A stretch of DNA of 64,000 bases from Ruegeria sp. THAF33 (GTDB lineage Bacteria > Pseudomonadota > Alphaproteobacteria > Rhodobacterales > Rhodobacteraceae): assembly GCF_009363615.1 (NCBI RefSeq), contig NZ_CP045384.1, positions 1 through 64,000 on the forward strand. Reading direction: 5' to 3'. How positions within the stretch are numbered: position 1 is the stretch's first letter; each line of letters begins with the position of its first letter. This document shows, piece after piece, positions 44,000 through 51,867 of the stretch. The translations under genes were made by a program, and so were the position numbers. The notes beneath the pieces were generated by a model. That model had not been told where the DNA came from. It searched no databases and worked only from the letters and a program-made list of their open reading frames with translations.

Positions 44000-45493
44000 A
44001 TGTCCACTGCCGCCCTTTTACTTCCCAACCAATTGTTTGCCCAACACCCGGGCCTGGCCGCCCGGCCCGATACTGTTGTACTTTTCGAAGACCCGCTGTT
44101 CTTTGGCGACGCGTATTATCCCGCCACGATGCACAAGCAAAAGCTTTGGCTGCACCGCGCCTCAATGGCGCGCTATCGCGATGGCTTGGTCGCCAAGGGC
44201 TTTGATGCTGCGATCTGGCGCTTTGAGCGGCAGCCGGGTGCATGTCTGCGGCTTTTTCAGAACCTGCGTGATCGTGGTGTCAGCCGAGTGATCATGGCTG
44301 ATCCAGTAGACTTCATTGCAGAAAGACGTTTTCGGGCAGCGGCTGGCAATACCGACATCACGCTCGATATCCAGCCATCCCCCGGCTTTATGAATACGCG
44401 GGCCGACAATCTGGATTGGTCTGCCGGTCGAAAACGCTGGTTCATGGCGGAGTTCTACAAGGGCCAACGCCGCCGTTTGAACGTGTTGATGGACAGCGGC
44501 CAACCGGCCGGGGGACAATGGAGTTTTGACGAGGAAAACCGAAAAAAAGTGCCCAAGGCGCTGTTGGGCAGCCTGCCTTGGATCGACTGGCCTGCCCATG
44601 ACGCAGTTGATGAAGCTGCAAAAGCGAGCGTTATCGCTGAATTTCCAGATGCATTGGGTGGCCTGGATACGCTATTTTATCCGACGTCACACAAAGCTGC
44701 ATCCGACTGGCTGGCGCAGTTTCTGGAACGGCGGTTCGAACACTTTGGCGACTATGAAGATGCTATTGTCGAGGGGGAAAACTGGCTGTGGCATGCCGTT
44801 CTTACGCCTGCTTTGAACATTGGCTTGTTGACGCCGAAGCAAGTTTTGGACGCTGCCTTGGCGCATGCTGATCGCAAGGGAATTCCCCTGAACTCGGTAG
44901 AAGGATTCATCCGCCAGATCATTGGCTGGCGCGAGTTTATGCGTGCTACCTATGAGAACCTTGGTGTGCAGATGCGCACTACAAACCATTGGGGCCATCA
45001 TCGCCCTATGCATCGCTCTTTCTACAACGGAACCACTGGTATTGATCCGCTGGACGACACGATCAAAAGGGTGCTCGAAACCGGGTATTGCCACCACATT
45101 GAACGCCTTATGGTACTGGGAGGATTTATGTTTCTGTGTGAGATTGATCCAGACCATGTCTATCGCTGGTTCATGGAAATGTTCGTCGACAGCTATGATT
45201 GGGTGATGGTTCCCAATGCCTACGCGATGAGCCAGCATGCCGATGGCGGGTTGATCACCACCAAACCGTATTTTTCCGGCTCAAACTACATTCGAAAAAT
45301 GAGCCATTGGGGCAAAGGGCCCTGGGCAGATATCTGGGACGGGCTTTATTGGCGCTTTATCCTGAAACACACCGATAGACTTGCTGGCAATCCCCGTTGG
45401 GCGATGATGTGCCGTACGGCTGGGCGCATGTCGCCAGAGGTCAAAAACAAGCATGTCACGACGGCTGAAGCCTTTTTGCGACGTATGACGTGA
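44000..45493 (+). CDS. FeS-BCP-like cryptochrome/photolyase lacking the cysteine cluster
   Basis: A 497-residue member of the prokaryotic (6-4) photolyase / FeS-BCP group. The N-terminal domain starts AALLLPNQLFAQHP and holds FFGDAYYPATMHKQKLWLHR; the FAD domain has IRQIIGWREFMRATYENLG, ETGYCHHIERLMVLGGFMF, MVPNAYAMSQHADGGLITTK and PYFSGSNYIRKMS. In classical members a C-x2-C pair and a further Cys lie between this point and LYWxF and bind a 4Fe-4S cluster. Here the segment reads HWGKGPWADIWDGLYWRF (about residues 433-450) with no cysteine, so the cluster should be absent. It starts 3 nt after the previous stop. Confidence 0.9.
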   Translation: MSTAALLLPNQLFAQHPGLAARPDTVVLFEDPLFFGDAYYPATMHKQKLWLHRASMARYRDGLVAKGFDAAIWRFERQPGACLRLFQNLRDRGVSRVIMADPVDFIAERRFRAAAGNTDITLDIQPSPGFMNTRADNLDWSAGRKRWFMAEFYKGQRRRLNVLMDSGQPAGGQWSFDEENRKKVPKALLGSLPWIDWPAHDAVDEAAKASVIAEFPDALGGLDTLFYPTSHKAASDWLAQFLERRFEHFGDYEDAIVEGENWLWHAVLTPALNIGLLTPKQVLDAALAHADRKGIPLNSVEGFIRQIIGWREFMRATYENLGVQMRTTNHWGHHRPMHRSFYNGTTGIDPLDDTIKRVLETGYCHHIERLMVLGGFMFLCEIDPDHVYRWFMEMFVDSYDWVMVPNAYAMSQHADGGLITTKPYFSGSNYIRKMSHWGKGPWADIWDGLYWRFILKHTDRLAGNPRWAMMCRTAGRMSPEVKNKHVTTAEAFLRRMT

Positions 45494-45659: not shown

Positions 45660-46538
45660 TCAAAATTCGGGAATATCAAAAACATACAGTCGCGATTTCT
45701 CGGCATCATCTGTCAGGATGTAGAGAAGTCCATTGGGCTCATCCAGGGCGATCCCTTCTGGATGCTTTACAACCTTACGGTCGCCGTCTGTCATATAAGT
45801 TAGTTCTATTGTCTCTGCCGTTCTCGTCTCGGGATTGTACAAAAAGATCTGGCGCCCTTTGTCGCTCAGAATCCACAGTACACCTGAGGACGCAGACCAA
45901 GCCAATCCGCTTACATCCAGCTCATCGTCATTTACGCGATCGGACATAAAACCAGATTTGCGATCCAATGGGGTGATTTCCTCGATCTCCGTCAGCTCTG
46001 GGGACAATACCAGCAACAACCGCGGTTTCCCTTCGATGACCACGAATACTCGCCCAGTGTCCGGATCGACTGTGATGCCCTCAGGCCCTTTGTTCAATGG
46101 ATTACCGACGAGCATTTCAGCTGCATCCGAATAACCCTTGAGAGTAGCAAGTGGAACCGTTGTAAGTTGAATGGGGTCGGTTGGGTGAACGACTAGAATT
46201 GACCGGTCAGTTTCCTGAAGCACCAAAACAGATCCATCTTTTCGCCAAGCGACACCCTCGAGGTCTGATCCCTTCAGTGATGGCAACTTGAAAGAGTTTC
46301 CCAATGCCCCGTCGATTCCAAGGAGATGCAGTTTAGGTTCGGCATCGCTGACAGACCACAAGAAGCCTTCAGCGCTGGAAAGCGACAGACCTGAAGGCTC
46401 TGAAAACCCTTCTGATTTGTCTGCGACCTTGAACCTATCGACCAGAACCAGATCAGCACTTTCGGCGCATGCAGGATCAGCCCACAGCGGGAAGGCTGCC
46501 GCCACTAACCCGGGCGCAAAAGCGAGCCGTCTAAGCAT
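45660..46538 (-). CDS. SdiA-regulated-domain exported beta-propeller protein
   Basis: A 292-residue exported protein. After a signal peptide (LAFAPGLVAAAFPLWADPA) come repeated beta-propeller-like blades: EPSGLSLSSAEGFLWSVSDA, DLEGVAWRKDGSVLVLQETD, GPEGITVDPDTGRVFVVIEG and HPEGIALDEPNGLLYILTDD. This matches the SdiA-regulated / esterase-like family. The ATG at 46538 has ggag on this strand; the frame extends to 46592. Convergent with the FeS-BCP-like gene side and transcribed away from the DUF4956-like gene. Function unknown. Confidence 0.85.
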   Translation of the reverse strand: MLRRLAFAPGLVAAAFPLWADPACAESADLVLVDRFKVADKSEGFSEPSGLSLSSAEGFLWSVSDAEPKLHLLGIDGALGNSFKLPSLKGSDLEGVAWRKDGSVLVLQETDRSILVVHPTDPIQLTTVPLATLKGYSDAAEMLVGNPLNKGPEGITVDPDTGRVFVVIEGKPRLLLVLSPELTEIEEITPLDRKSGFMSDRVNDDELDVSGLAWSASSGVLWILSDKGRQIFLYNPETRTAETIELTYMTDGDRKVVKHPEGIALDEPNGLLYILTDDAEKSRLYVFDIPEF

Positions 46539-46803
46539 AAAGAAGCTCCGTGAAATTTCAGGTTTTGACGGAAACACTTTGTTTTCTGCCATTCAGTTTT
46601 CTCGCCCGTGGATCACATCCCTTTATCGCGTTCTTATCACAACTCAGATGCGATGTCGGAAGAATGCTCATTGAACTCTTTACCTGATCCCGATTGTTGC
46701 GATTGAATTGAATGGGGCATGATGTGCCTGTGGTGAAGCCTAAGCCCTTGGCCTGAGCAGGAAGGAAGAAAAGCTGAATACGACATTCCCGTTTAAAACC
46801 GCG

Positions 46804-47532
46804 TTGTTGATGCTGCTGTTGCCAGGCGCTGCGGTGTCGCAAATCGATCCTGCAACGATGCTGGCCGGAGCTTCGGAATCAGAAATTCTGATCGAACGCC
46901 AATGGACTCAGTTTCGCGGCAAACAGGAACTGTATTTCTTTACTCTCGATGTGGTGGTCACGATCATTCTGGCTGGCTTGATCGTCTATCATCCGGTGAG
47001 ACGCAAAGCCCGTAGAAGCATCGGCGACTTGGTCATGCCGAGGCTTTTCTTCCTTTATGCGCTTATCGGCATGGCTGTTGGATTCCTGGTTGTTCAACAT
47101 GGGTCAATGATCGGATTCGTTATCTTTGGCATCGGCGCGTTGCTCAGGTTCCGATCCAATCTTGATGATCCGGTAGACACCGTTGAAATGATAGTCGTAA
47201 CTGTTCTTGGTCTTGCGGTCGGTTTGGGCTTGCCACTGATGGCCACACTGGTAGCGATTGTGTGTTGGTGCTTCATTTGGCTCGGAGGGCGAAACAAGGG
47301 CGTGGAAGTTTCGCTCAAGGCTTCAGATGAAGAACACTCATTGAACGTCAGCGGAGACATTGAAGCCATGGCCGCAGACGCTGGCTGGAAGCTTGTCAGA
47401 AAACACCACGTCCCCGGCAAGTCTCGCGTTTCATTGCTTTTCATTACTTCGGGTGGACTTTCAGAAGCCCGGATCGAAGAGATGATAAACGATCTGGTCC
47501 CCGAAAAAGTCGAGTTGAAACTCAACCTCTAG
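46804..47532 (+). CDS. DUF4956-like membrane protein
   Basis: About 242 residues with a likely N-terminal signal or span, then four hydrophobic spans (YFFTLDVVVTIILAGLIVYH, LFFLYALIGMAVGFLVV, VIFGIGALLRFRSNLDDPVD, MIVVTVLGLAVGLGLPLM) and a soluble C-terminal alpha/beta domain. GIGALLRFRSNLDDPVDTVE fits the DUF4956 signature; such proteins are often encoded beside polyphosphate- or CotH-type kinase genes. Start uncertain: TTG 46804, ATG 46810, or a CTG at 46774 that follows ggaaggaag and would give a better signal peptide. It abuts the convergent metallophosphoesterase gene with no gap. Confidence 0.72.
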   Translation: MLMLLLPGAAVSQIDPATMLAGASESEILIERQWTQFRGKQELYFFTLDVVVTIILAGLIVYHPVRRKARRSIGDLVMPRLFFLYALIGMAVGFLVVQHGSMIGFVIFGIGALLRFRSNLDDPVDTVEMIVVTVLGLAVGLGLPLMATLVAIVCWCFIWLGGRNKGVEVSLKASDEEHSLNVSGDIEAMAADAGWKLVRKHHVPGKSRVSLLFITSGGLSEARIEEMINDLVPEKVELKLNL

Positions 47533-48474
47533 TTATTTCACAAGGTCCAATCGTTTCAACACCGCATTCGGGGATCTGATCTCTTTCGGTAGTGACTTGA
47601 AGTTTACAGACCTTTCGAAATTGGGCCCTCGATATACTGCTATCCCAAACTCTCCGTTCGGCTGGAACGTAACATGAGTGAAGCTGTGTGGTGATCTGGC
47701 TTTTGAGCCGATAAGCCGTCGTGGACCACCGCCCAAACAAGCTTGGGAAACATAGGCCACACCGTCTTTCCAGCCTGGGTAGAAGGCATGATGGTGGCCG
47801 GACAGATGCAGAACGACCCCGCTTTGCAGGTAGATTTTCTCAAGTGTCGGGTCACCGATGATTTCGCGTTCGCGCTGGATCGCGAAGGGCCAAAGCGGCA
47901 GGTGACTGAAAGTGACAATCGGGTTTCCATTCGCCCCCAGCTCCTCAAGTTGGTCCTTCTGATCGCCGGATAGCGGCCCAAGGGTCGTGGCATCCAAAGA
48001 CGCAAACGTGACGCCTTGCATCTCAAACGCGTAGAAGAACGGATAGTCATCCGAAACCAGGAAATCGACGTCTGGTTTTCTCGGCGCCCATTCCTCGGCG
48101 TAGATTTTTCTTTCACGTTCGAAACCACGGTAGGCAGAGGCATCATGGTTTCCCGGCGTGACCGCAAATGGAATTCCGGCAGCCTCCAGCGGGTCTGACA
48201 CCGCCTTGTGAAACGCCTTCCACATCTCTCTGACCTGTTTGTCTGACAAGTTGGGAATGCGCTGACCCGCAACCATATCTCCGGTCGAAACCACCAGATC
48301 GGGATCAATCTCGATTATCCGTTCAATTGCCTTGTCGACACGGGCATCGTATTTTATCGAGCCGTAGCTTCCGTTCAGATCCGATATGACGATTACATCC
48401 AAAGCCGCCGCTTTGCAGGCAAGCAGAGCGGACCAAATCAACACCGCCGCGGTGACGGAGCGCTTACGGGTCAT
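47533..48474 (-). CDS. Exported calcineurin-like metallophosphoesterase
   Basis: A 313-residue phosphoesterase with a signal peptide (SVTAAVLIWSALLACKAAA). Metal ligands: VIVISDLNGSYGS (the first motif has Asn where D-x-H is usual), VVSTGDMVAG (D), VTPGNHDASAYRG (N/H), FSHLPLWP (H) and LSGHHHAFYPG (GHxH). It should act in the periplasm or outside on a phosphoester. Its start overlaps the end of the kinase-like gene by 11 nt, so the two are coupled, third in the order phosphatase-like, kinase-like, phosphoesterase. Confidence 0.85.
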   Translation of the reverse strand: MTRKRSVTAAVLIWSALLACKAAALDVIVISDLNGSYGSIKYDARVDKAIERIIEIDPDLVVSTGDMVAGQRIPNLSDKQVREMWKAFHKAVSDPLEAAGIPFAVTPGNHDASAYRGFERERKIYAEEWAPRKPDVDFLVSDDYPFFYAFEMQGVTFASLDATTLGPLSGDQKDQLEELGANGNPIVTFSHLPLWPFAIQREREIIGDPTLEKIYLQSGVVLHLSGHHHAFYPGWKDGVAYVSQACLGGGPRRLIGSKARSPHSFTHVTFQPNGEFGIAVYRGPNFERSVNFKSLPKEIRSPNAVLKRLDLVK

Positions 48475-49897
48475 TACAGTCCACAGCCTTTACCTCGGTG
48501 TCGTTTTTCAAAAAGAATGCGACGGGGTCCAAGTCGAACATCAAAACACCTTTTGAACAATTGCTCTGGAGAATGGACGTTGCCAGCGCTGTATTTTTAA
48601 CGGCTTGCGCAATCTGCCTATCTGACAGGCCAAAGCTTTGCGACAACCAGTCATAAATCGGGCCTTGCGTTTGAAGGTCATTATTCAAAGCAAACAAGCG
48701 CTGGTAAGTGCTTGGAGAAAAGTGTCGCATTTTCTCCAACATCTGAGTGGATTTCGCGAAGTTGGCATATTCGACACGCCCACCAGCATCGTTGTCGTTT
48801 AGATTGCTGCGACGGATCAATAATGCGTCGGCTGGAACATCTCCATCGTTTGGCTTATGGTGCTTGGCCTTCTTGTGCTTCAGGTCTCCGTCTTCGACCC
48901 AATACCAATAGGGTGTGAAGTCTATGTTTCCTACGCGGTCCTGCTGGCTAAAGATGAAGTCGAGCAGAACAATCTCGGTAAGTTCTTGCATCCAAAATGC
49001 CATCTGTTGGTCGCTGACATCGGGGCCGAGATCCTTGTTGATCTGCCGATCCTTTCGACCTTCCCTGACACCCTCTACAATGGCCTCGGGCAAGGGTTTT
49101 GAAGACCGCAAGGCCAAGAAGGCGGGTGTTTCCTGAAAATCGCGGTTTTGGCCTTTGCCCCAACCGGATTTACGGGTGCCGTTGATTTCCGAGCCGTAGC
49201 GATGACCGGGGCTGTCAAGCAGGACACCGTATATCTGCGTTCGATCCGCGGTGAACAGATCATCGGTTGGCTGGTACGAGTTCGGACCGGCATCCGCAGC
49301 CACGAATACCCGCCAGCCTTCATGGTTCATGCGCCCGCCATGAGAGCCACCAGAAATCGCAAGGCCGGGCTCTGCGACCTCGGTGAGATGCGCCTGAGCG
49401 TCCATGCTACGCCAGACCGCCACCGGAACGTTCACCGTCGCGTCGAAATACCTGGAGAAATGGTAGTAGAGCAGCGAAGAGGTTGAAAACGTTCCGCTTG
49501 TACCCTTCTGGTTCATGGTGGATTTGAATTTAGCCACCCTGTCCTTTGCCAGATCTTTTGCCGCCTTCCCCTCTTTGCAAGCGTTTCTCTCGAATTCGGA
49601 ACGGTTCCCGGCGTAGGGTCCTTCCGAAATATCGTAGACGGCCATTCCTGGGCTGGTGCTCCAGGTTTTTGGGCAAACAGCAATTTCGGAGGCATAGAAA
49701 TCAATCTCGCAATAGGTTGTTTCTTCCTCAAGATCGCTTTTCTTATACTCGCCCGTTGGAACTTTTTCGATCCGAATACAGCGTTCAGTAACGCCGTTGG
49801 GACTATCAAATGTCGTGGCTTCACCGAGAACATCGTCGTTCGCACACAAGATGGTGGGTGCAATGAAAGCAAGAGACCCCAGAAGATGGAACTTCAT
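48464..49897 (-). CDS. Secreted protein with atypical-kinase-like motifs
   Basis: A 477-residue exported protein of unknown family. An N-terminal signal peptide (LLGSLAFIAPTILCA) is followed by several cysteines (40, 63, 75, 107) likely to form disulphides. In the C-terminal half LLDFIFSQQDRVGNIDF (311-327) resembles the catalytic D-R-x-G-N segment of PI4K-, HipA-, CotH- or Fam20-type kinases, and LNDNDAGGR (366-374) resembles the following metal-binding D-x-G. The segment SLLYYHFSRYFDATVNVPVA (141-160) fits the N-lobe helix that precedes VP in those families. No ATP lysine is identified with certainty. It would be a phosphotransferase acting in the periplasm or outside; alternatives include a pseudokinase. 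Confidence 0.62.
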   Translation of the reverse strand: MKFHLLGSLAFIAPTILCANDDVLGEATTFDSPNGVTERCIRIEKVPTGEYKKSDLEEETTYCEIDFYASEIAVCPKTWSTSPGMAVYDISEGPYAGNRSEFERNACKEGKAAKDLAKDRVAKFKSTMNQKGTSGTFSTSSLLYYHFSRYFDATVNVPVAVWRSMDAQAHLTEVAEPGLAISGGSHGGRMNHEGWRVFVAADAGPNSYQPTDDLFTADRTQIYGVLLDSPGHRYGSEINGTRKSGWGKGQNRDFQETPAFLALRSSKPLPEAIVEGVREGRKDRQINKDLGPDVSDQQMAFWMQELTEIVLLDFIFSQQDRVGNIDFTPYWYWVEDGDLKHKKAKHHKPNDGDVPADALLIRRSNLNDNDAGGRVEYANFAKSTQMLEKMRHFSPSTYQRLFALNNDLQTQGPIYDWLSQSFGLSDRQIAQAVKNTALATSILQSNCSKGVLMFDLDPVAFFLKNDTEVKAVDCNDP

Positions 49898-49916: not shown

Positions 49917-50561
49917 TCATCTAGGGCAAATCGCAGCCCGTTGTTCGGCGGAAATCTTCAGGTTGGGGTCGACACTGAAGTTGGAGAATTTTGCGTCAAT
50001 CCACTTGTCGCATCCGCCTGAACATGGGGCACCGTTTCGGGCATCATTCCAATATTCCTTGGCCCTTTCTTCCGTCCAACCGCAAAACTGAACAAGCGCC
50101 ATTGCCGACAGTGCGCCAGAGGAATGAACGCCCCACATGCAGTGTACCAGGACAGGGCCCTTTCCAGGGTTTTCAATTACTTCGTGTATGGATGCCATGA
50201 CGGCACCGGGACGGGAGGATCTGGCGCTCTGATAGTCAAAGGATCCGTTCCCACAACTGGTGCGGCCGTACTGAGTGTTTTTGCCGAAGTCGGCATAAAA
50301 CCCGGTTGAAAACCCTTTTTCGCACAAGGTTTCGCGTTGAACGTCACTCAGACCCGTTCGATCCTTGTCGCCGCCCTTGAAACCGGATCGATACAACACA
50401 CCGCTTAAGACTGGGCGGAAGAAAGCGACGCCATCGACCCCTCCGTCGCCACTTTTTGAAAGCATTTGGCTGTTGCTAGGGCCACCGTTTCGGCTGGTGA
50501 CGCCAGAAGTCGCAGCGGTTGCCAGAACACCAATGAATATGAGTGACGTCAAAAACCGCAT
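49917..50561 (-). CDS. Secreted tyrosine-phosphatase-like protein with altered signature
   Basis: A 214-residue exported protein, signal peptide about residues 1-20. LYRSG (56-60), FYADFG (88-93) and VLVHCMWGVHSSGALSAMAL (137-156) follow the layout of the cysteine-dependent phosphatase fold (HCxxGxxR[S/T]), but the arginine position is Ser147 (HC-x-x-G-x-x-S-S). The nucleophile Cys141 and the preceding His are kept. Extra cysteines (CSGGCDKWI, AAICPR) suggest disulphides. It lies 19 nt upstream of the kinase-like gene in the same direction, probably one operon. It may be a pseudophosphatase or have a changed specificity. Confidence 0.65.
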   Translation of the reverse strand: MRFLTSLIFIGVLATAATSGVTSRNGGPSNSQMLSKSGDGGVDGVAFFRPVLSGVLYRSGFKGGDKDRTGLSDVQRETLCEKGFSTGFYADFGKNTQYGRTSCGNGSFDYQSARSSRPGAVMASIHEVIENPGKGPVLVHCMWGVHSSGALSAMALVQFCGWTEERAKEYWNDARNGAPCSGGCDKWIDAKFSNFSVDPNLKISAEQRAAICPR

Positions 50562-50893: not shown

Positions 50894-51199
50894 TCAGCAG
50901 TCGCCTGATGGCAGCATAGTTACATCTGAATACCTTCCTTCAGATGTCGTGATCCGCGCACATGCGCCGGTATCTTTGTTAAACCAGTAAGAGGTCAGCC
51001 CTTCGCTTCGGATAAGTTCAAACCCGAGACTTTGAATGCCCATTTCAGCCTGACCCGCTCTGGCCCCTTCAAATGACGAAAGATCGCTAGAGCTGCCCAC
51101 AGTTGGTGCACTCGCATCCACTGACCCGCCACTCTCGTCGCATGCTGAGAGTACAGAAATACACACTGTACCGATCACCAAAAAGACTTTGGATTTCAT
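50894..51199 (-). CDS. Small lipoprotein
   Basis: A 101-residue lipoprotein with signal FLVIGTVCISVLSAC (lipobox LSAC). The mature part GFELIRSEGLTSYWFNKDTG, then CARITTSEGRYSDVT looks like a small globular domain with two cysteines (CAR and GDC) that may pair. Function unknown; one of several exported small proteins in this stretch. Confidence 0.72.
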   Translation of the reverse strand: MKSKVFLVIGTVCISVLSACDESGGSVDASAPTVGSSSDLSSFEGARAGQAEMGIQSLGFELIRSEGLTSYWFNKDTGACARITTSEGRYSDVTMLPSGDC

Positions 51200-51252: not shown

Positions 51253-51867
51253 CTATTCAATTCCGAAAATTACGTTGTAGCCGACGGAAGAGTTGCCGCG
51301 GTTGATGACCTCGACAACATGATCACCGGATTGCCACAGCTGCCCTCGATACTCCTTGTCCGCCGACATCAATCCCAACAGTTCAGAACCATCGGGGTTT
51401 CGAATAACGTAGTCCAAGGTGCCATTTCGCGGAGCAACGCGAACGTAAAGGAACTGTTCGTTTTTGGCGCCAAGGACGTATTGCTGGGACGCTCCGGGCG
51501 CGAGTTGGCCAACGAGTTCGGCGCCAGTTGAACCAGTATCAAATTTGACGCGTTGGCTTTCAGTAGATCCTTCGGCGCCGGCCATAGCTCCACCACCATC
51601 ATCCATCGCCTCGACAACCGACATCTCTCCGATGCTTCCATCCTTGTACGCGATGCATCGCCAGAGTGTCCCACCTGCGTCACGTAGCATGACCAACGTG
51701 CCAGCTTCGGAAAACTCTGAGCTTTCAATCGTACCGGATTGACCGTCTGGCCCACCAACTTGCCGTAAATGATCGATACACGCGTCATCGGCTTCCGACA
51801 TTGCAAGAGCAGCTGTGCCCGAAATTGCAAACATGGGTGTGAGGAGGTTCAGTAAACGGAGTTTCAT
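51253..51867 (-). CDS. Exported protein with a domain shared with 52587-52886
   Basis: A 204-residue exported protein. Signal peptide LTPMFAISGTAALA. The first mature part (ACIDHLRQVGGPDGQSG, SEFSEAGTLVMLRDAGGTLW, RCIAYKDGSIGEM) is clearly paralogous to the small lipoprotein at 52587-52886 (ACLRDV, SAFSEAGTQV, WNCIAYSDG). The second part (SQQYVLGAKNEQFLYVRVAP, LDYVIRNPDGSELLGLM) resembles a small beta-sandwich binding domain. Function unknown. Confidence 0.72.
   Translation of the reverse strand: MKLRLLNLLTPMFAISGTAALAMSEADDACIDHLRQVGGPDGQSGTIESSEFSEAGTLVMLRDAGGTLWRCIAYKDGSIGEMSVVEAMDDGGGAMAGAEGSTESQRVKFDTGSTGAELVGQLAPGASQQYVLGAKNEQFLYVRVAPRNGTLDYVIRNPDGSELLGLMSADKEYRGQLWQSGDHVVEVINRGNSSVGYNVIFGIE

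Follow-up and report, generated by a model that had tools for sequence, protein, structure and literature searches.

A bacterial protein family with a predicted Fam20-like kinase fold, exported and encoded beside two phosphatase-like proteins in Ruegeria

The DNA analysed here (the window) comprises 64,000 nucleotides, positions 1 to 64,000 of contig NZ_CP045384.1 of the marine bacterium Ruegeria sp. THAF33, and includes a gene for an exported protein of 477 amino acids. On the basis of its predicted fold, this protein is probably an active, extracytoplasmic atypical kinase, from a family new at the sequence level within the PI4K/HipA/Fam20 branch of the kinase fold and closest in fold to animal Fam20. 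A first-pass annotation, made from the letters alone, had proposed an exported atypical kinase of this kind from an unrecognised family, and the structural model supports that proposal. The reading frame it gave was exact and its numbering of D320, N324 and D370 was right; we add the minus strand (Table 1). The kinase may phosphorylate something outside the cytoplasm, because it is exported, has a Fam20-like predicted fold and is encoded next to two phosphatase-like partners in a conserved gene block. If correct, the assignment widens the bacterial kinome by an exported Gram-negative family undetected by the family libraries searched, provides a compact system for the study of phosphorylation outside the cytoplasm, and makes the phosphate-donor source of an exported kinase a testable question.

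Predicted fold and invariant motifs

The AlphaFold2 model of the window protein, built from an alignment of only 39 sequences, has a predicted local distance difference test score (pLDDT) of 92.6 (five models, 90.0-92.6), falling below 50 at residues 1-18 in the signal-peptide region. A two-lobed kinase fold is found in the model. Structure searching returned Fam20 as the best fold match, with Hydra Fam20 at the top, followed by PI4K-II as the next fold family. No row named CotH is present among the 50 structure matches listed, an absence that does not exclude a CotH fold, and nothing in a viral structure library matched at E <= 0.001. Structure prediction and profile searching had both been put forward as checks on the original proposal, with a confident non-kinase fold or scattered, non-conserved D320, N324 and D370 named as refuting outcomes. 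The predicted fold is confident and kinase-like; the searches of Pfam, NCBIfam and PDB sequences yielded nothing usable, and it was the model that supplied the kinase-like fold.

Conservation was assessed in 272 distinct sequences, made up of the best 120 of 956 and the best 120 of 672 matches from two protein searches, the window protein and 31 loci. These divide into 151 members of subfamily 1, including the window protein, and 121 of subfamily 2; as best matches they favour the nearer relatives in either subfamily, while the subfamilies share only 24-28% identity. C75, K77, S80, K125, H146, R149, D313, Q318 and Q319 are identical in all 272 sequences, as are D320, R321, G323, N324, D368, N369 and D370, and the identity of the latter seven places the motifs beyond chance. 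The residues singled out at first, D320, N324 and D370, are therefore invariant and not scattered. D326 marks the subfamilies, being Asp in 150 of 151 members of the first and His in 120 of 121 of the second.

Candidates for the beta3 lysine (K125), the catalytic aspartate (D320) and the metal-binding asparagine and aspartate (N324, D368/D370) thus occur, invariant, in kinase order, with a putative structural equivalence. The Asp/Asn/Asp order of the first-pass annotation stands; by eye, D368-N369 fits the Asp-Asn of the Fam20 LDNG motif better than does D370. The Fam20C consensus, again compared by eye, reads FKPMKQ ... HLDRILDFRRVPPVAGR ... FDFLMGNMDR ... HLDNG, and the window protein follows the same order with FKSTMN ... 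HFSRYFDATVNVPVAVWR ... LDFIFSQQDR ... NLNDND. On that reading D368 would be the metal-binding Asp.

Searching with the window protein identified 956 proteins at E <= 0.001 among 7996 scored. The closest seven are 90-93% identical, the named ones all from Ruegeria, and those of the best 120 that carry a name are mostly called 'hypothetical' or 'uncharacterized protein', with one (P0002) named 'CotH protein'. A scan of genome contigs confirmed 107 relatives, 80 of which were kept as loci; by label they include many Rhodobacterales, along with metagenome-assembled genomes (MAGs) labelled Gammaproteobacteria, Thermoanaerobaculia, Bdellovibrionales, Thiothrix and others. The second subfamily was opened by locus L083, which is 27% identical and from the same class as the window organism; its search gave 672 proteins among 7991 scored, with Bradyrhizobium proteins the best named among the 120 listed. 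The family is patchily spread, being present in 2 of 398 Pseudomonadota genomes (its own included), 19 of 54 genomes of its own genus and, for the genus to which L083 belongs, 2 of 146 genomes, one of these as two weak pieces.

Export and conserved cysteines

The signal peptide and the many cysteines of the first-pass annotation were both recovered. An N-terminal hydrophobic, signal-peptide-like segment is present (MKFHLLGSLAFIAPTILCA/NDD, read from the sequence), and the mature part holds six cysteines, at positions 40, 63, 75, 107, 447 and 474, kept in 264, 267, 272, 271, 271 and 270 of the 272 sequences, respectively. Using a crude hydrophobicity criterion of our own, 10 of the 151 members of subfamily 1 fail a signal-peptide test. 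Five of these (P0090, P0120, L048, L052 and L077) were set aside as fragments, cropped references or borderline cases, and apart from one gap they have Cys at both C40 and C63. The other five (L073, L075, L076, L078 and L080), from Thiotrichaceae, Thiothrix and a MAG labelled Aquificaceae, have no signal peptide when read from the first start codon; C40 and C63 are both gone from four of them, and C63 alone from the fifth. Both cysteines are kept by 140 of 141 signal-bearing members of subfamily 1 and by 107 of 108 passing members of subfamily 2. The joint loss of signal peptide and cysteines in these five natural exceptions suggests a C40-C63 disulfide in the exported protein.

The five apparently signal-less members are perhaps cytoplasmic versions of the kinase family. 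No PTP-like or metallophosphatase relative (see below) lies within 4 kb of them, L073 offering only 410 nt downstream, and by eye L076 has another phosphoesterase-like open reading frame (ORF) nearby.

Phosphatase-like partners and a possible mechanism

The kinase gene is bordered on either side by a gene for an exported phosphatase-like protein (Table 1). The metallophosphatase retains the GD, GNHD, H and GHxH motifs, and its first metal motif is Asp-x-Asn in 51 of 52 rows, the remaining row being a gap. Calcineurin-like metallophosphatases usually have Asp-x-His at this place. The second partner resembles protein tyrosine phosphatases (PTP) and dual-specificity phosphatases (DSP): with near-identical Ruegeria loci excluded, HC, the Gly and a His at C+5 are each present in 46 of 46 sequences. 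The position of the catalytic Arg is occupied by Ser (32) or Ala (14), and the HCx5R signature is absent. An alignment across both kinase subfamilies has the H, C, G, H and S of this loop invariant (21/21). Compared with the PDB, the PTP-like profile gave 26 matches at E <= 1 (best E 0.021), 24 of them named phosphatases; the other two, 2m3v and 1lar, carry neutral names. In Pfam, DSPc (E 0.018) ranked behind PmbA_TldD_3rd (E 0.006), both below cut-off. The protein may be a pseudophosphatase or a PTP variant so far unrecognised. For the DUF4956-like membrane protein that follows in the block, relatives score 21.2 in L028 and not at all in L025, and the polyphosphate polymerase (VTC) expected beside DUF4956 was not found in this genome.

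Table 1. Features of the kinase gene and its neighbours in the window
Feature	Position	Strand	Basis
Exported Fam20-like kinase-fold protein, 477 aa	48464..49897	-	ORF, predicted fold, conservation
Signal peptide, residues 1-19	49841..49897	-	Sequence; cleavage site by eye
Loop K77-G84 (KTWSTSPG), flanked by strands 72-76 and 85-89, where a glycine-rich loop would lie	49646..49669	-	K77 272/272; putative role
K125, candidate beta3 (VAIK-type) lysine, strand 119-126	49523..49525	-	272/272; putative role
H146-R163 segment, H-x2-R...VP...R	49409..49462	-	H146, R149 272/272; R163 271/272
Catalytic loop Q318-N324 (QQDRVGN), D320 candidate base	48926..48946	-	D320, R321, G323, N324 272/272
D368-N369-D370, DFG/DNG-like candidate metal-binding motif, after strand 359-365	48788..48796	-	272/272; putative role
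Exported PTP/DSP-like protein, HCxxGxH[S/A]S loop, catalytic Arg absent	49917..50561	-	Ends 19 nt before kinase start
Exported calcineurin-like metallophosphoesterase	47533..48474	-	Pfam PF00149 E 6e-16; start overlaps kinase stop by 11 nt
DUF4956-like membrane protein	46804..47532	+	17.5 vs Pfam cut-off 30.6 bits (below)
Exported SdiA-regulated/phytase-like beta-propeller	45660..46592	-	PF06977 E 3e-22; PF13449 E 1.5e-12

A mechanism can be sketched from these assignments. K125 and the K77-G84 loop would bind a nucleotide between the two lobes, D320 would act as the catalytic base, and D368, with D370 or N324, would hold the metal. Phosphate would then be passed to an exported protein or a glycan of the envelope, and the mark would be reversed or read by the metallophosphatase, perhaps together with the PTP-like protein as a second enzyme or a binding subunit. 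With all its parts, the block would make phosphorylation in the cell envelope switchable.

Comparison with known kinases

As we read it, the protein works like a Fam20 or CotH kinase yet is a member of neither by profile or motif. Like the Fam20 proteins (Fam20A/B/C, PF06702) of the animal secretory pathway, its best fold match, it is exported and cysteine-containing, with an Asp-Arg in the catalytic loop and an Asp-Asn in the metal motif; by eye, an x-F-K strand and the H-x2-R...VP...R segment (HLDRIL..RRVPPVAGR in Fam20C) come in equal order. It differs in being bacterial, in its loop (DRVGN vs DRHHYE) and metal motif (DND vs DNG), in a profile match that is not significant, and in having no conserved acid between K125 and D166. 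The FYF and CxYYC features of Fam20C (PMC5865150) are absent from the window protein. The descriptions of Fam20 proper come from animals (PMC7948968, PMC9758233), and FAM20 is listed as eukaryote- or Metazoa-specific (PMC9758233). CotH (PF08757), the bacterial spore-coat atypical kinase, is a distant relative of Fam20C with an atypical kinase-like fold (PMC7821199), and its genes also adjoin DUF4956 genes (PMC7112168); unlike CotH, the window family leaves PF08757 unmatched, shows no relation in profile comparison and comes from a genome with no VTC. Bacterial cousins of Fam20 have a precedent in Legionella, since predicted kinase-like families, reported as novel and described there as potential effectors, cluster with FAM20/CotH (PMC9758233). 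These too are bacterial, kinase-like and near FAM20/CotH, a comparison made by description only. Literature searches limited to open-licence papers showed no description of such a bacterial family apart from CotH and the Legionella families. PI4K type II, CtkA, HipA/HipT and actin-fragmin kinase gave lower Z than Fam20 and no sequence match. None of these is known to be exported.

Several observations weigh against the assignment as an active Fam20-like kinase, the first group coming from sequence profiles. No kinase family in Pfam matches the protein or its family, and the Fam20C (PF06702) and CotH (PF08757) profiles are unmatched. When the family was compared by hhalign with a profile of 16 vertebrate Fam20C sequences, the score was 30.4 (P 0.007, probability 5%), which is not significant at the sequence level. 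With a larger alignment (272 sequences plus reference) it dropped to 27.2 (P 0.022), and two further overlapping alignments, in which the Asp-Arg register was unchanged, were weak (P 0.11 and 0.018). The aligned segment is the catalytic loop only, with D320-R321 placed on the Asp-Arg of Fam20C (DRHHYE); the path without realignment has an 8-residue gap immediately after Asp-Arg, and the alignment is therefore uninformative on N324. Control scores were at most 22.6 for 20 column-shuffled Fam20C profiles, 18.6 for one reversed profile, and 21.6 and 16.9 for two unrelated families. The comparison with CotH found no relation (P 0.3), a test that is weak in general because Fam20C against CotH itself scores only 17.7. 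Fam20C profile similarity is suggestive of homology without proving it, and it is the predicted fold that carries the claim. A PF06702 scan of 398 Pseudomonadota genomes gave 2 weak matches and none above cut-off. In a family-library search, 13 of 23 family members matched CopK (best E 0.0015). PDB profile matches to phosphorylase kinase (E 0.01 in one search, 1.4 in another), DAPK3 and two non-kinases were discounted as chance matches; for those to kinases, the reason is that C-terminal helices were aligned to a different part of the kinase.

The second group concerns structure and export. TM-scores by query in the structure search were 0.35-0.43, and the second subfamily gave a poor model (24 sequences, with P0122 as the first row; pLDDT 54.1), a result that in itself neither supports nor opposes the assignment. 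N324 lies at D+4 (D-x3-N), one residue short of the D+5 spacing found in PKA, PI4K and HipA. No column between K125 and D166 is at least 93% acidic in the 272 sequences, and the expected segment offers no conserved acid partner for the beta3 lysine. The Gram-negative periplasm is not known to contain ATP. In subfamily 2, 12 of 13 members failing the signal-peptide test still keep C40 and C63, mostly with short or borderline N-termini. In hydra Fam20, Asp152 on the segment following the beta3 lysine pairs with that lysine, and Fam20A, with Gln at the acid position, is a pseudokinase (PMC5865150, PMC7948968). Acids E38, D55 and E59 are conserved elsewhere in the window family, and one of them might stand in for the missing partner.

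Activity towards an envelope glycan or lipid rather than a protein, as in Fam20B or PI4K, is a sub-case of the active-kinase assignment and not exclusive of it, and we hold it as a tentative option. The top structural match, Hydra Fam20, has robust xylosylkinase activity and no protein kinase activity (PMC7948968), and PI4K-II comes second among the fold families. A similar fold does not reveal the substrate, however, and beyond the five block genes and a small ORF (o204) no annotated gene family recurs beside the kinase in most loci (rarer clusters being unannotated).

It is unlikely that the protein is a pseudokinase, keeping fold and nucleotide pocket but regulating its phosphatase partners as an exported scaffold that binds a nucleotide or other ligand, as Fam20A regulates Fam20C. 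The missing acid after K125 would fit such a role, and degenerate enzymes are plausible in this block because the catalytic Arg of the PTP-like neighbour is missing from all 46 sequences aligned. Invariance of the Lys, Asp, Asn and Asp-Asn-Asp over two divergent subfamilies is nevertheless unexpected for a pseudokinase, and E38, D55 or E59 could fill the missing role. Use of the kinase fold for a different transfer (AMPylation, glutamylation or similar) seems quite improbable. It has precedents among kinase-fold enzymes (PMC7948968), and both the missing acid and the unusual motifs (D-x3-N, Asp-Asn-Asp, a K/S/T loop replacing the glycine-rich loop) would suit it, whereas the phosphatase-like neighbours fit phosphate marks best. 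That the kinase-like match is a model artefact and the fold unrelated, as the 39-sequence alignment, moderate TM-scores and poor second-subfamily model might suggest, is very improbable and already largely refuted by the high pLDDT of all five models and the agreement of fold, motif order and conservation.

Organisation of the gene block

Neighbours were counted within 4 kb of the kinase in the 80 loci, several of which end at contig edges, and we grouped the loci as 'Ruegeria' (17; L002-L017 and L055, L016 being Tropicibacter), other Rhodobacterales (40, assigned by title or similarity) and distant (23). The PTP-like gene is present in 17, 39 and 3 of these, respectively, and the metallophosphatase in 17, 38 and 11; the DUF4956-like gene occurs in 16 of 17 Ruegeria-like and 33 of 40 other Rhodobacterales loci, and the propeller in 16 and 26. 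The order PTP-kinase-metallophosphatase followed by the DUF4956-like gene (opposite strand) and propeller is seen in 19 of 80 loci, and in 13 more with the DUF4956-like gene on the same strand. Eight loci have the DUF4956-like gene and propeller upstream, 11 have the kinase alone, and the remainder show partial or other orders. L083, of the second subfamily, likewise carries the PTP-like gene, there overlapping the kinase.

Kinase, PTP-like protein and metallophosphatase share the identical 19 of 54 genomes of the genus, and the DUF4956-like gene is found in 18 of those 19 and in no other genome of the genus. This co-occurrence is equally explained by inheritance of adjacent genes as one block. 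We regard as improbable a self-contained system of reversible envelope phosphorylation in which the Fam20-fold kinase writes, the metallophosphatase erases, the Arg-less PTP-like protein is a reader or a phosphatase of new chemistry, and the DUF4956-like membrane protein provides the phosphate donor in an ATP-free compartment, as DUF4956 proteins would also do next to CotH kinases and polyphosphate polymerases elsewhere. No stable hairpin was found in the 41 nt at 47520-47560.

Two kinase copies occur in genomes G539 and G576, and there are hints in G575 of a second block that is split. For G539 and for the single strain of L010 and L029, the two copies each stop at the end of a contig, some 62-66 residues into the metallophosphatase, a pattern that a collapsed repeat could produce. 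Beyond the PTP-like gene, the window has small ORFs at 50894-51199 and 51253-51867 (both minus strand) that match nothing in Pfam and whose N-termini are signal-like; the latter, o204, recurs no more than 4 kb from the kinase in 14 of 17 Ruegeria-like, 13 of 40 other Rhodobacterales and 1 of 23 distant loci. At 44000-45493 (plus strand) the window encodes a photolyase-related protein (PF04244, E 4e-44), unrelated to the kinase.
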